IMG/VR virus record: IMGVR_UViG_3300043399_000459
Span: 1-58,714 of that record
Length of the DNA stretch: 58,714 nucleotides
Direction: 5' to 3' (one strand)
Source of the DNA: a virus
The notes below the pieces were generated by a model. The model made no database searches. It was not told the DNA's origin and saw only the letters and a program-made list of their open reading frames with translations. Shown here in pieces: positions 3,460 to 50,826 of this stretch. Position 1 is the first letter of the stretch; every line of letters starts with the position of its first letter. The position numbers and the translations under genes are program-made.

Positions 3460-3671
3460 GTCGTCTGCTCCATGGCTTGGCGGTGGACGATCGCCTTGAC
3501 GCTGCGCCGCCTGTCATGCGTCAGCCTGCGCTCGGCCACCGGCAGCGCCAGAGCCTCGCTCAGCGCGTCGACGACGCAACTGAACGTCTTCTCGGTGCCG
3601 TAGGGCGTCCTGTAGACCAGCATGCAGGCGTAGCGCCGCGTCGGCGCGTCGTGGAACCTGTGCCTCCTCAT
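3456..3671 (-). CDS. Hypothetical basic protein, 71 aa
   Basis: An Arg/His-rich N-terminus (MRRHRFHDAPTRRYA) is followed by a likely beta-strand and a helix (DALSEALALPVAERR). Its stop overlaps the next start by four bases and its start overlaps the upstream stop. No recognised domain. Confidence 0.55.
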   Translation of the reverse strand: MRRHRFHDAPTRRYACMLVYRTPYGTEKTFSCVVDALSEALALPVAERRLTHDRRRSVKAIVHRQAMEQTT

Positions 3672-46825: not shown

Positions 46826-46950
46826 GCAAACGCCCACCGGATCCAAGCCACGCCCTTGGCGATCTCGACCACCAGTACCCACAGGATCAGGATCGCGACC
46901 GCCGCTACGCCAGCACAGCCCGTCAAAGTACTTTTGAGGTCTTCGTCCAT
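46822..46950 (-). CDS. 42-aa single-span membrane protein
   Basis: MDEDLKSTLTGCAGVAAVAI continues as one long transmembrane segment (AAVAILILWVLVVEIAKGVA) and ends WIRWAFA. It starts 3 bp after the polymerase stop codon and its stop overlaps the nuclease start. Function unknown. Confidence 0.5.
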   Translation of the reverse strand: MDEDLKSTLTGCAGVAAVAILILWVLVVEIAKGVAWIRWAFA

Positions 46951-46953
46951 TTC

Positions 46954-49900
46954 TCAGTCCTTGCGATAGCGATGGCACTCGAACCCTGTGGCCGCCAACG
47001 GCAGCCCCAGCGACCAACTCGGGTTCGTCGCCATCATGCCAGCCAACGCCTCCGCCGTGAAGTCCGGAGTGTCAGGCACCTCGCACACAAGCTCGTCGTG
47101 GACGCGCAGGACCACCGGATAGCCCGCCTGCTCGGCGCGGTAGAAGCCGACGAAGAACACGTCGCGGGCAGTAGCCTGCACAACATTCTCGCAGTTGTGC
47201 ACGATCATCGTGTCGCCGTTTTCGCCAGCCACCACAAACCTGCGAAGCGGCCCACTATTCACCAAATCGTAAACTTCCGCGATGTGTCGGGTGCCTCGAA
47301 CAGCCTGCTGTCCGGCACTCCGGTGTTCACTCGATAGTACAGCGTCGTCCGGTTCAGCCCCGATCGGTCTGCCGCTTCCGCAACTGTCATCCGGCCCCAT
47401 GGTGTGTTTATCGGTACGTTCGCCCGCCTGTTTCGGGCCTGCCTCGTGTACGTCGCCCAGACGCAGTTCTGCGGGCTGTATCCTGCGGAATTGTCGCGCC
47501 GCTCTAGCGTCAAGCCCTCCTTGTACGTCGGGCCCATGTCTGCCCAGAAGGCGGAGAAGGAGCGACGCCACTCTTCGCACACTTTGATACCGCGACCGCC
47601 GTAGTTTTTCCAAGCCTGATGCGTAGGCAGCGTGCAACGGTCGATCATGCTCCGCCAGACCGCAAAGGCCTTGTGGTGCGACATCCCGTGCGTCTTGCGC
47701 TTGGTCGATATGGTGTGCCGCTTCATGCACCCGCAGGACGCTTGCACGCCGCGCTTCTGCTGTTTTGTTATCTCGATCGCGGGGAGAATTATCTCTTTCC
47801 CGCATACGCAGCGGAGCGACCACAGTGATCGGCTGCCATCGCTGCCTTGGTAGATCAAAACCGTCAGGTATCCGAGTGTCTGCCCGCTCAAGTCCCTCGC
47901 TCTGTGATGCACGCACCCATCCTTCCGTAGACAGCACTTCATGGTCAGGCGTCATCCAAACGCCATTCAGACAGATTACCTCTTTAATACCCCTCCTGAC
48001 AAGACCCTCGTGCTCGACCCAAGCGCCCCCGTCCCAGAGCTTATGCGTTGTGCTGACATGTTCGATTGGCAGCCATCCGGCGTCTGTCAGTACTAGCGTC
48101 CCCTGTGCTAAGCACAGTTTGCCGTAGTATGTCTCCAGCCACTCCCACTTGCGCGTGAACTGGTTGACACCCTCGTAGAGGATCTTGCCGTCGTCGTTCA
48201 CGTGCATGTTGCGGTAGCATATGTAGCGGCCGCTCGGCAGCTTGCAGCGCACGTACATCGCGCCGTCTGGCCCCTCGCGGCGGTCGAACTGGACGTAGCC
48301 GCGCACGTCGTACGTGTCGCCCACCTCACCCCTGATCGCCTTGCGGCACGCCGCCTCGACGTCGTACCAGAAGGCCTTGGTCGCCGGGTGCGCCTTGCGC
48401 CAGCTCCAGACCACATCTTGCACCTCTTCATCGGACATAGCGTCAACACGAGTGCCGCCCATTTTGCGAAAGGCACCAACGGATCCACCAAATCCACAGT
48501 TATGGACTATCACCGGCCCTGCGTCAGTCAGGATCGCAAACCGATTTCGCGGCCCCACATTGGCAATGTCGTAGACGTTCTTCCAATTCGAGGATGCGGG
48601 CTTGTAGAACTGGGATGCGTCGACCGGGGTTACGATTGGCTCGCCGTCCGATGAAACGGAGATTACCCGGCTCGTAACCCCGGTCGACATCAATTCGATC
48701 AAGCTCGAGTTCTGGTCTATCCCAGCCATCAAGCGTGACAAGATACCTGAGAAAAGCTGCTCGATCTGTTCGCCACGGCTCAAAGACGCGGATGCCTCGA
48801 CTGCCGTAGTTGGTGTAGGCTTTGTCGTTCGGGTTGTGGCACCTGTTGAGGCAAGCGGAGATGCGATTGCACAAACGCCGTCTATGCTCGTCATCTGGGC
48901 ATACGTCTGCATAGCGGAACCACGCTTTTGTCCAACGCCCCGCTTTCTTTTTTGCGCAGCTATTGCAGCGGGTGCTGGCTCCGCGACGGATATTGTGGAT
49001 GTCGGTTCCGTACGGGCCTGCCCCGCAAGAACATTTAACAAGAACAGCTCTAAGTCCTCCGCGAGGGCCGAGATCAAAGCCAACGACTTCAAGCTCTCCG
49101 AACCTGTCGCCAATGCTTGGTCGCGGCAGTTCGGGAAGGTAGCGACCGTCTGGGCCGATTGCCAAGTCTCTCCGCACAAGATGAGATGATCCGGTGTTAT
49201 CTCCACTCCGTCTAGCTGGACGACTTGTCTCCGGCCTCGGTCCACTAGGCCTGTATTTGGCACCCACTCCACTCCGTCCCATAGCAAGTCCTCCGCTGTA
49301 ACCTCTGTAATCAGCTTTACGCCAGTTTTGGTAATAACGCGGGTACGGGGGCCTAGGCAAGCGAGTTCGGATACTTTTCCGGGGTTTTGCCGCTCGTCCT
49401 TCGTTATGTCGCCCGGATCCTTGCCGAGGATGCGCCCGGCGGTGACCTTGTAGAGGTCCGGCCCCTCGCCCCGGTCGTACGCCTTGAAGGCCTCGATCTT
49501 CCACTGCTCGCCCGCCAGCCACGCCAGCACGCGCCCCTCGATGTTCGACAGGTCTGCGATCACGAACTTCTTGCCCGGCTCGGCCACGAGGCAGCCGCGC
49601 ACGGCCATGGAGCAGCGCTCGCTGACATTGCCCCACAGGATGTCGTCGCAGTCCGCCTTGAACGCCGCGACGGTCATCTCCTGTACGTCGCCGTCGAACC
49701 AGTCGGGTGTCCTAGGTAAATTTTGCGGCTGGAAAATACGACCCGCGTCCCTGAGAGTACGTGATGCGCCGCCGTACTGCACGGTTCCCCTAAGCCGCCC
49801 GTCACTCGACACTGCGCCGAGCAAAGCCTTGTACTTCGACGGGCTGGTGGCTGCCGCCTGCTGGCGCATCTTGAGCAGCTTGCGCACCTCTGCGGGCAGC

Positions 49901-50703
49901 TCACCGGCAAGCAGCTTCCCGACGTCGTCCTTGGTCAGGCCCTCGGCGTTGACGCCCAGCTCCGCCATGCGGGCGAGGAGCGCGTTGCGCTGCGTGGTCG
50001 AGCCCAGAGCGCCGCCGGTCAGAAGGGCGGTAGCGTCGGCCAGAGATCGAGAAGCTCGTTCAAAAGCTCGGAGAGCGGATCGGGCGAGTTCTCGGTCGAC
50101 GGCGATACCACTGTCAGAAGTTCTTTGGTCGAGTAGCCAGAACTGGCGCTCAGCCCGATTACAATTCCAATCCGGCAGCCGTCGATATACGGATCGCATC
50201 GCGTCCACATCGAGGCGGGCGTATTCGATGAACCTTTCCCACTCATCCGGGTGCGTCTCCCGCGTAGCTCTGCGAAGCTTCTGGTTCTTGGGCCGGGGCT
50301 TCGAGAACAGTTGTATCAGCTTCTTGCCGTCCTTGTCCTTAGCCTTGTCGGTAGGCACCTCGAGGACGTCACAGAGTTGACCCAGAGACGCAGGCAGCGC
50401 GTGTTGGAGCGCAATTACCATGGTGTCCGTGATTTTATCCACAGGAATATGCACGCCGCGGTGGCGCAGCACGGTGCGGTCAAAGGCGCTGTTGTGGATC
50501 ACGACCTCGTCCGCCGTGTCGATCATGAGCTGCACTGGACCCTTGGCGGCCTGCCAGTCGTCGCTCGTGTCAAGCACCGTCACAGGCTCGTCGTCCCACG
50601 CGTACGCCACCAGCAAGATCTCGGCGTCCTCGGCATAGCGGTGCGCGCCGTGCTTGATGGGGGTGTCGGAGTAGGTCTCGAGGTCAAGATACAGTGTAGA
50701 CAA
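46954..50703 (-). CDS. Family A DNA polymerase with two inteins
   Basis: One open frame of 1249 codons from a TTG start (AGGAGGG 5 bases upstream). Removing two inteins (residues 449-735 and 864-1170) leaves a 655-residue polymerase, the usual size for phage enzymes with exonuclease plus polymerase. The 3'-5' exonuclease has DLET (7-10), HNSAFD (70-75) and YARLDVDAM (161-169). Polymerase motif A is DLSNIEGRVLAWLAGE (384-399). Motif B is rebuilt as GKVSELA/CGFGGSVGAF, and VHDE (1201-1204) is motif C. Both inteins lie in these conserved blocks and both end next to Cys, as splicing requires. An RNA stem upstream may control translation. It is the replicative polymerase. Confidence 0.92.
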   Translation of the reverse strand: MSTLYLDLETYSDTPIKHGAHRYAEDAEILLVAYAWDDEPVTVLDTSDDWQAAKGPVQLMIDTADEVVIHNSAFDRTVLRHRGVHIPVDKITDTMVIALQHALPASLGQLCDVLEVPTDKAKDKDGKKLIQLFSKPRPKNQKLRRATRETHPDEWERFIEYARLDVDAMRSVYRRLPDWNCNRAERQFWLLDQRTSDSGIAVDRELARSALRAFERASRSLADATALLTGGALGSTTQRNALLARMAELGVNAEGLTKDDVGKLLAGELPAEVRKLLKMRQQAAATSPSKYKALLGAVSSDGRLRGTVQYGGASRTLRDAGRIFQPQNLPRTPDWFDGDVQEMTVAAFKADCDDILWGNVSERCSMAVRGCLVAEPGKKFVIADLSNIEGRVLAWLAGEQWKIEAFKAYDRGEGPDLYKVTAGRILGKDPGDITKDERQNPGKVSELACLGPRTRVITKTGVKLITEVTAEDLLWDGVEWVPNTGLVDRGRRQVVQLDGVEITPDHLILCGETWQSAQTVATFPNCRDQALATGSESLKSLALISALAEDLELFLLNVLAGQARTEPTSTISVAEPAPAAIAAQKRKRGVGQKRGSAMQTYAQMTSIDGVCAIASPLASTGATTRTTKPTPTTAVEASASLSRGEQIEQLFSGILSRLMAGIDQNSSLIELMSTGVTSRVISVSSDGEPIVTPVDASQFYKPASSNWKNVYDIANVGPRNRFAILTDAGPVIVHNCGFGGSVGAFRKMGGTRVDAMSDEEVQDVVWSWRKAHPATKAFWYDVEAACRKAIRGEVGDTYDVRGYVQFDRREGPDGAMYVRCKLPSGRYICYRNMHVNDDGKILYEGVNQFTRKWEWLETYYGKLCLAQGTLVLTDAGWLPIEHVSTTHKLWDGGAWVEHEGLVRRGIKEVICLNGVWMTPDHEVLSTEGWVRASQSEGLERADTRIPDGFDLPRQRWQPITVVAPLRMRERDNSPRDRDNKTAEARRASVLRVHEAAHHIDQAQDARDVAPQGLCGLAEHDRPLHAAYASGLEKLRRSRYQSVRRVASLLLRLLGRHGPDVQGGLDARAARQFRRIQPAELRLGDVHEAGPKQAGERTDKHTMGPDDSCGSGRPIGAEPDDAVLSSEHRSAGQQAVRGTRHIAEVYDLVNSGPLRRFVVAGENGDTMIVHNCENVVQATARDVFFVGFYRAEQAGYPVVLRVHDELVCEVPDTPDFTAEALAGMMATNPSWSLGLPLAATGFECHRYRKD
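47194..48114 (-). mobile_element. Intein 2 in the DNA polymerase (307 aa)
   Basis: It starts at Cys864 (CLAQGTLVLTDAGWLPIEHV), has block B NGVWMTPDHEVL, block F VYDLVNSGPLRRFVV and ends MIVHN before Cys1171. It interrupts YGKL/CENVVQATARD just before the catalytic motif C region. Between block B and block F the intein frame reads as Arg/Asp/Ala-rich sequence without motifs. This is because an HNH endonuclease is encoded there in the next frame (47259-47942). The splicing blocks resemble those of intein 1 (LWDG, WV, GLV.RG, TPDH), so the two inteins are related. Confidence 0.88.
47259..47942 (-). CDS. HNH homing endonuclease out of frame inside intein 2
   Basis: The 227-residue frame is shifted +1 relative to the polymerase. 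It has a zinc-like CVCG ... CGC pair, the HNH-type block KNYGGRGIKVCEEWRRSFSA, LTLERRDNSAGYSPQNCVWA, ARNRRAN and a C-terminal helix-turn-helix-like part (MTVAEAADRSGLNRTTLYYR). This is the common phage HNH homing family. The ATG at 47942 lies inside the codons for intein block B (PDH), and the stop lies in block F (VYDLV). Later starts before RDLSGQ are possible. All of the gene lies within the intein, so nearly 700 bp are dual coding. Confidence 0.85.
   Translation of the reverse strand: MKCCLRKDGCVHHRARDLSGQTLGYLTVLIYQGSDGSRSLWSLRCVCGKEIILPAIEITKQQKRGVQASCGCMKRHTISTKRKTHGMSHHKAFAVWRSMIDRCTLPTHQAWKNYGGRGIKVCEEWRRSFSAFWADMGPTYKEGLTLERRDNSAGYSPQNCVWATYTRQARNRRANVPINTPWGRMTVAEAADRSGLNRTTLYYRVNTGVPDSRLFEAPDTSRKFTIW
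48499..49359 (-). mobile_element. Intein 1 in the DNA polymerase (287 aa)
   Basis: It starts at Cys449 (CLGPRTRVITKTGVKLITEV), has block B GVEITPDHLIL, block F VYDIANVGPRNRFAILTDAG and ends VIVHN before Cys736. It splits motif B (GKVSELA/CGFGGSVGAF). The in-frame middle (about residues 515-700) is Ser/Thr/Ala-rich, with no LAGLIDADG or in-frame HNH motif. The endonuclease is instead encoded in another frame at 48524-49177. Confidence 0.9.
48524..49177 (-). CDS. HNH homing endonuclease out of frame inside intein 1
   Basis: The gene is in the third frame relative to the polymerase (the other endonuclease uses the second). GTG 49177 gives 217 residues, and TTG 49165 (GGAG 4 bases upstream) is an alternative. 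The start is uncertain. The frame is open to 49636, but that part is shadow. The product has VKCSCGAG ... CNSCAKK zinc-type cysteines, NRISACLNRCHNPNDKAY, NYGSRGIRVFEPW, LELDRIDVDRGYEPGNLRF and a coiled C-terminus ending RHCQCGAAKSVCDPD, a recognisable phage HNH family. Its last codons overlap intein block F. Confidence 0.85.
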   Translation of the reverse strand: MRRDLAIGPDGRYLPELPRPSIGDRFGELEVVGFDLGPRGGLRAVLVKCSCGAGPYGTDIHNIRRGASTRCNSCAKKKAGRWTKAWFRYADVCPDDEHRRRLCNRISACLNRCHNPNDKAYTNYGSRGIRVFEPWRTDRAAFLRYLVTLDGWDRPELELDRIDVDRGYEPGNLRFIGRRANRNPGRRIPVLQARILELEERLRHCQCGAAKSVCDPD

Positions 50704-50707
50704 GAAA

Positions 50708-50794
50708 GCCCTCCTCTTTTGGAGAGGCGCGCAGCGGTTTCAGCAACACGAGGAGACCCCACGTTCCGCTGCGCACCTCACCAAAAGGGAGGGC
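50708..50794 (-). promoter_or_regulatory. Long RNA stem-loop burying the polymerase ribosome site
   Basis: Arms 50708-50737 and 50766-50794 are inverted copies. As RNA they form about 29 pairs with one G-U, one mismatch and one bulged base, around a 28-nt loop. The proximal arm contains AGAGGAGGGC, the ribosome site of the TTG start at 50703. A smaller alternative hairpin (CCTCT/AGAGG) is possible. It looks like a translational switch, reminiscent of the T4 polymerase operator. Confidence 0.7.
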
Positions 50795-50826
50795 TGCCGG
50801 TCCCAAGGCAGCAGGGACCGACAGCC
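50792..50826 (-). terminator. Stable hairpin downstream of the GapR-like gene
   Basis: GGCTG-C-CGGTCCC (50792-50804) pairs with GGGACCG-A-CAGCC (50814-50826), 12 bp with one mismatch. On the minus strand it is followed by CCTCCCTTTT, a weak U-tract. It may attenuate transcription between the GapR-like and polymerase genes, and it partly adjoins the long stem. Confidence 0.5.

Follow-up and report, generated by a model that had tools for sequence, protein, structure and literature searches.

How can a single polymerase gene carry two inteins, each enclosing a homing endonuclease gene in another reading frame, and still be read through from end to end? We addressed this question for the window, the whole 58,714-base stretch of an IMG/VR virus record (64% GC), in which a family A DNA polymerase frame runs from TTG 50703 to 46954 without interruption, its 1,249 codons spanning both inteins (Table 1). 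A preliminary description had claimed an unbroken polymerase frame and two inteins with complete splicing blocks, and both claims were borne out: the frame is stop-free throughout, and every block was found in each intein. Our preferred reading, to which we assign a probability of roughly 0.88, is that these are two-layer mobile inteins, each composed of an in-frame splicing intein and a separate, internally initiated, captured HNH homing gene. The proposal draws on the architecture, its conservation, selection on both products, and the Cys+1 at occupied sites, all read from sequence.

Both inteins open with Cys1 and block A, and C1 was invariant in both alignments. Block B carries the TxxH motif in each case (TPDH at 49197-49186 in intein 1 and at 47952-47941 in intein 2), and blocks F and G, the terminal HN, and Cys+1 are likewise present in both (VYD.., IVHN/C; here and below, a slash marks the junction). 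Intein 1 lies at SELA/CGFGG and intein 2 at YYGKL/CENVV. Intein-less relatives that are 65 to 69% identical read PELA/GGYGG at site 1 and GKL/VENIV at site 2; relative to these, Cys+1 replaces Gly and Val, respectively. The inserts are in frame and missing from relatives, with four loci empty at both sites (L004, L005, L007, and L008), and when the window was compared with empty relatives, a +1 Cys was seen only in intein-occupied polymerases. Joining the exteins in silico, with both inteins removed, gave a 655-residue family A polymerase. Neither intein has an endonuclease fused in frame, as canonical bifunctional mobile inteins do, and the host gene in the window is unbroken, unlike fractured genes, which are interrupted by stops with their halves encoded apart. 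Because the host frame is never interrupted, we infer that both inteins are spliced in cis from one polypeptide.

Table 1. Coordinates of the polymerase gene, its inteins, and the embedded HNH genes in the window
Feature	Coordinates	Strand	Evidence or remark
Family A DNA polymerase precursor, 1249 aa	46954..50703	-	Pfam PF00476, PHROG 17
Intein 1, 287 aa, class-1-type	48499..49359	-	CLGPRT...TPDH...VYDI...IVHN/C
HNH endonuclease 1, polymerase frame +2	48524..49177	-	PHROG 374, E=5e-29
Shine-Dalgarno-like GGAGAG	49168..49173	-	Precedes candidate HNH1 start TTG 49165
Intein 2, 307 aa, class-1-type	47194..48114	-	CLAQGT...TPDH...VYDL...IVHN/C
HNH endonuclease 2, frame +1, 217 aa from GTG 47912	47259..47912	-	PHROG 374, E=4e-52
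Shine-Dalgarno-like GGAAGG, in codons of intein 2 block B	47921..47926	-	8 nt before HNH2 GTG
Intein 2 residues 91-275, filler overlapping HNH2	47290..47844	-	AlphaFold pLDDT <50, no confident fold

Comparison with phage protein families identified both embedded products as predicted HNH homing endonucleases (PHROG 374/3377) with invariant motif residues. The closest relatives of HNH1 lie inside polymerase genes of Salmonella and Vibrio phages. For HNH2, the nearest solved sequence was the HNH homing endonuclease 1U3E, a weak match (E = 0.09), and Foldseek gave no informative match to the predicted HNH2 structure. An NCBIfam profile search named nothing useful. The two ORFs had originally been described as out of frame at 48524-49177 and 47259-47942. 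Their positions and frames held, but for HNH2 the proposed ATG start at 47942 is less likely than GTG 47912, a position conserved among relatives. HNH1 probably starts at TTG 49165 or GTG 49177; clear conservation of the HNH1 start among relatives was not found.

Across the +1 class, the start codon falls just past block B, at the identical base in 39 of 83 clusters, with an ATG, GTG, or TTG near the expected position in 76 of 83. In all 36 clusters whose overlying intein residue is D, N, Y, C, H, or AGY-Ser, the codon takes the form NRT, with the final T that an RTG start requires and never a C. Roughly 8 nt upstream of the HNH start lie the GG-rich codons of block B (often Glu-Gly-Trp). Predicted anti-Shine-Dalgarno pairing there was −6.2 kcal/mol, versus −5.1 kcal/mol after synonymous resampling (P = 1e-4); this excess is slight because the block B Gly-Trp already yields GG-rich codons. 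A conserved RTG after block B is a plausible route for HNH translation, and the pattern points to internal initiation.

The HNH protein might instead be made as a fusion of the N-terminal intein region to HNH by programmed ribosomal frameshifting, which we consider unlikely. The block B region is open in both frames, so a shift could join them, and both +1 and −1 offsets are known among programmed frameshifts in general. Against this stand the conserved start in the +1 class and the T retained under it; moreover, the aligned upstream region held no conserved slippery site that could be seen by eye, and several members carry a stop in the HNH frame right upstream of the start. Internal initiation accounts better for these features.

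We then asked whether the intein frame is open across the HNH genes by chance. Over each HNH ORF in the window, the HNH and intein frames contain no stops, versus 15 (HNH1) and 13 (HNH2) in the third frame. Within the window alone, this openness was significant but modest, both when HNH codons were resampled synonymously with genome codon usage (P = 0.001 for HNH2 and 0.019 for HNH1) and when each gene's own codons were shuffled (P = 0.009 and 0.044, respectively). We therefore turned to 134 public loci with the same layout, which collapsed to 96 clusters when grouped at 80% nucleotide identity. In 95 of these 96 clusters, no stop interrupts the intein frame across the HNH gene; the 4 stops observed in total all fall in one relative (L069). 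Synonymous resampling with local codon usage predicted 803 stops and own-codon shuffling 576, and the third frame of the same genes held 1,147. Since an intein-based search may favor open frames, a second search was made by HNH alone. Among 59 HNHs recovered between recognizable intein halves, 58 lay in a different frame from the intein, whose own frame was open; the sole exception (L120) resembles an indel. As a control, neither alternative frame was open in any of 52 free-standing HNH homologs. The open clusters include members down to 38% GC. Chance openness due to GC content is ruled out by the codon resampling, the third-frame stops, and the free-standing controls. Recurrence of the layout in independent isolates and metagenomes likewise rules out a frameshift or sequencing error, L120 being the only locus that resembles an indel. 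As to whether the insertion always keeps the host frame open, it does so in all clusters except the one represented by L069.

Selection on the two frames was estimated with an overlap-aware dN/dS, in which substitutions are counted by their effect in both frames, for eight pairs of the +1 class and seven of the +2 class, two of the latter being near duplicates. The HNH frame was constrained in both classes (dN/dS = 0.135 [0.09 to 0.17] in +1; 0.09 [0.05 to 0.12] in +2), whereas over the same bases the intein frame gave 0.99 (0.84 to 1.21) in +1 and 0.54 (0.30 to 0.77) in +2. The nonoverlapping N-terminal splicing domain gave 0.11 and 0.23. This contrast indicates selection on the HNH protein and on the splicing domain, with the overlapping intein residues largely free to vary as long as no stop arises. 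It is possible that some residual constraint acts on the intein frame of the +2 class. The near-neutral ratio of the +1 intein frame in the overlap gives no support for a second functional protein there. Together with the stop-free clusters, the near-neutral amino acid change in this frame upholds the original claim that selection holds a second frame open through the HNH gene.

Structural prediction agreed with the selection data. AlphaFold modeled residues 1-90 and 276-307 of intein 2 with a pLDDT of ~90 and residues 91-275 with a pLDDT below 50, and Foldseek matched the folded part to the RecA, DnaB, and DnaE inteins (probability, 1.00). The ends of the intein are thus predicted to fold as a splicing domain, with a disordered middle. 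The Hint fold is supported by a model for intein 2 and by homology alone for intein 1.

These data bear on whether the inteins could be dead, with the HNH genes persisting, splicing lost, and the frame left open by GC-rich chance. The GC content of the window and the openness over HNH1 in the window alone (P = 0.02 to 0.04) would fit such a history, but it is made very improbable by the open clusters at low GC, by the constraint on the splicing domain (dN/dS, 0.11 to 0.23), and by the terminal HN and Cys+1, which are retained in nearly all relatives; in addition, the polymerase would probably be harmed by an unspliced insert of ~300 amino acids next to its active-site motifs. The least probable reading takes each insert for a group I intron that houses an HNH gene. 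It has in its favor the 'type I self-splicing intron' annotation of gp38/gp39 in the Sodalis phage SO-1 record and the fact that HNH genes are common within introns. It is rejected on the absence of any Rfam match in 46900-50800, even at E ≤ 1, and is further opposed by an insert that is open in the host frame over its whole length, encodes all splicing blocks and a predicted intein fold, and is followed by a Cys+1 in place of Gly or Val, a residue required for protein splicing but not for RNA splicing.

Far from being confined to this phage, the arrangement is widespread, and known phages carry it, Salmonella jerseyviruses among them. A scan of IMG/VR with the intein alignment confirmed 395 loci; in the 80 that were fetched, the HNH frame was +1 in every case and the intein frame was open in 79. 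A scan of bacterial genomes found the layout on contigs of Bacillota, Synergistota, Verrucomicrobiota, Spirochaetota, and Pseudomonadota. Insertion sites include two motifs in the polymerase, a second-site variant displaced by three residues, and a helicase gene. Caulobacter phage RW carries an unannotated HNH gene at the second site in frame +1, and Salmonella phage Ent1 carries one, also unannotated, at the first site in frame +2. In Sodalis phage SO-1, the HNH is gp39, inside gp38 (L240:876-4064). In phage APSE-1, the second site within P45 holds the HNH, again in frame +1 and annotated too short as P46. The annotated APSE-1 P46 (L015:3743-4165) starts internally, and the HNH reading homologous to the others starts at about locus base 3515. 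In the most extreme pairs, HNH identity was 60 to 63% versus 7 to 12% for the exteins. Inserts far more alike than their hosts in such pairs are consistent with horizontal movement. Because the same arrangement recurs in about a hundred distinct relatives, we conclude that the layout is a real, long-maintained, and largely unannotated way to build a mobile intein.

Where did the embedded genes come from? A tree of 142 HNH domains placed the main +1 embedded group in a single clade of 70 (99/79) adjoining free-standing phage HNH genes; the +2 group made up one side of a branch (93/62), and a +1 group from Clostridia/Synergistes was the third. This grouping suggests two or three captures of free-standing HNH genes, or frame switches; on this phylogeny, the arrangement appears to have arisen at least twice or to have switched frame. 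Related sites also hold mini-inteins of 357 to 534 nt that lack an HNH insert (L145, L147, L153, L155, and L158, from about 4001). Such mini-inteins, along with the clade beside free-standing HNH genes, support the earlier suggestion that a free-standing HNH gene invaded a mini-intein. The description of the result as a nested, "overprinted" element applies to the intein filler but not to the HNH gene, which belongs to an old family. In L069 (4001-4963), five stops break the intein frame, the HNH remains intact, and the ATG of the C-terminal half overlaps the HNH stop (ATGA). Reading L069 as a stop-recoded phage is unsupported, since all three stop types occur among the five, and a split intein fits better. 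This layout, an operon in which the HNH gene sits between two split-intein halves, may have been derived from the overlapping one, or the reverse.

Mobile inteins usually carry an in-frame homing endonuclease of the LAGLIDADG type, with HNH in some. The elements described here share with them a Hint domain, an endonuclease between blocks B and F, placement in conserved motifs of replication genes, and a disjunct distribution, but their endonuclease is a separate protein in another frame and the in-frame middle is disordered filler. Group I introns with an intronic HNH gene (I-HmuI type) likewise hold an independent endonuclease frame within a splicing element; here that element is a protein, and its reading frame therefore has to remain open across the endonuclease gene. 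Dassa et al. reportedly described, in 2009, fractured genes in which split inteins have an endonuclease between the halves. There, too, splicing halves flank a free-standing endonuclease, and L069 is of this kind, whereas the host frame is unbroken in the window and in the other 95 clusters.

In the records of APSE-1 (P45/P46) and Sodalis phage SO-1 (gp38/gp39), an HNH ORF had already been placed in a polymerase gene in another frame, but these cases were annotated singly and the intein/HNH architecture was not recognized. The closest published case is the ShiLan domain, an HNH hidden out of frame in an insert of a phage DNA methylase (Arsenault, Gosselin and Gogarten 2025, PMC11855218). As here, the insertion is open in the host frame and the HNH is out of frame, and the HNH-coding stretch of Pacc40 gp60 is a homolog of HNH2 (40% identical). 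ShiLan lacks splicing blocks, and its authors concluded that it does not splice (PMC11855218), whereas both inserts in the window contain complete splicing domains. Translation may also differ, with an internal ribosome-binding-like site here in place of leaderless initiation. The claim of an unrecognized class may hold only in part: an out-of-frame HNH in phage genes was published in 2025 (PMC11855218), though not in inteins. The open-access literature yielded no description of out-of-frame HNHs in inteins, although a preprint on the "Non-Canonical Architecture" of actinobacteriophage inteins may overlap.

We propose the following mechanism. In the first layer, the polymerase frame would be translated straight through both inserts, the ends of each insert pairing up as a Hint splicing domain with the ~185-residue middle as a disordered linker, and the inteins would excise themselves to leave the 655-residue polymerase. 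In the second layer, the HNH homing endonuclease, encoded by a gene of its own in the stretch from block B to block F, would be translated in its own frame by internal initiation at the conserved RTG just past block B, probably via the Shine-Dalgarno-like stretch that block B encodes. The expressed HNH protein would then home by cutting polymerase genes without the insert, and repair from the occupied copy would spread intein and HNH as one unit. On at least two occasions (+1 and +2), ancestral mini-inteins would have taken in a free-standing phage HNH gene out of frame, after which selection would preserve both the HNH protein and the splicing blocks and keep the intein frame clear of stops and frame-changing indels.

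More broadly, we lean toward the view that these elements represent a widespread third architecture of mobile inteins, in which the HNH is an independent cistron overlapped by stop-free filler, captured two or three times, and spread as a unit to polymerase and helicase sites; it may also lead directly to split inteins whose endonuclease is free-standing, as L069 suggests. Such an architecture would uncouple the halves of a mobile intein, such that the endonuclease may evolve, be lost, or be expressed apart from splicing, while the splicing frame has to be read through a foreign gene. It would form an evolutionary link among contiguous inteins, split inteins, and free-standing homing endonucleases. 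The relatives also provide a large natural set of long overlaps between a real enzyme and near-neutral filler, which is useful for the study of overlapping genes and of new coding sequence. Unannotated endonucleases lie hidden in many database entries for phage polymerase genes, including those of the Salmonella jerseyviruses and Caulobacter phage RW.

Two individual loci show further features. L137:3212-4924 has two intein N-domains in a single polymerase frame, as in the window. At L099:4001-4864, the HNH frame stops after ~100 codons and the intein frame is open, possibly reflecting decay of the endonuclease with splicing retained.
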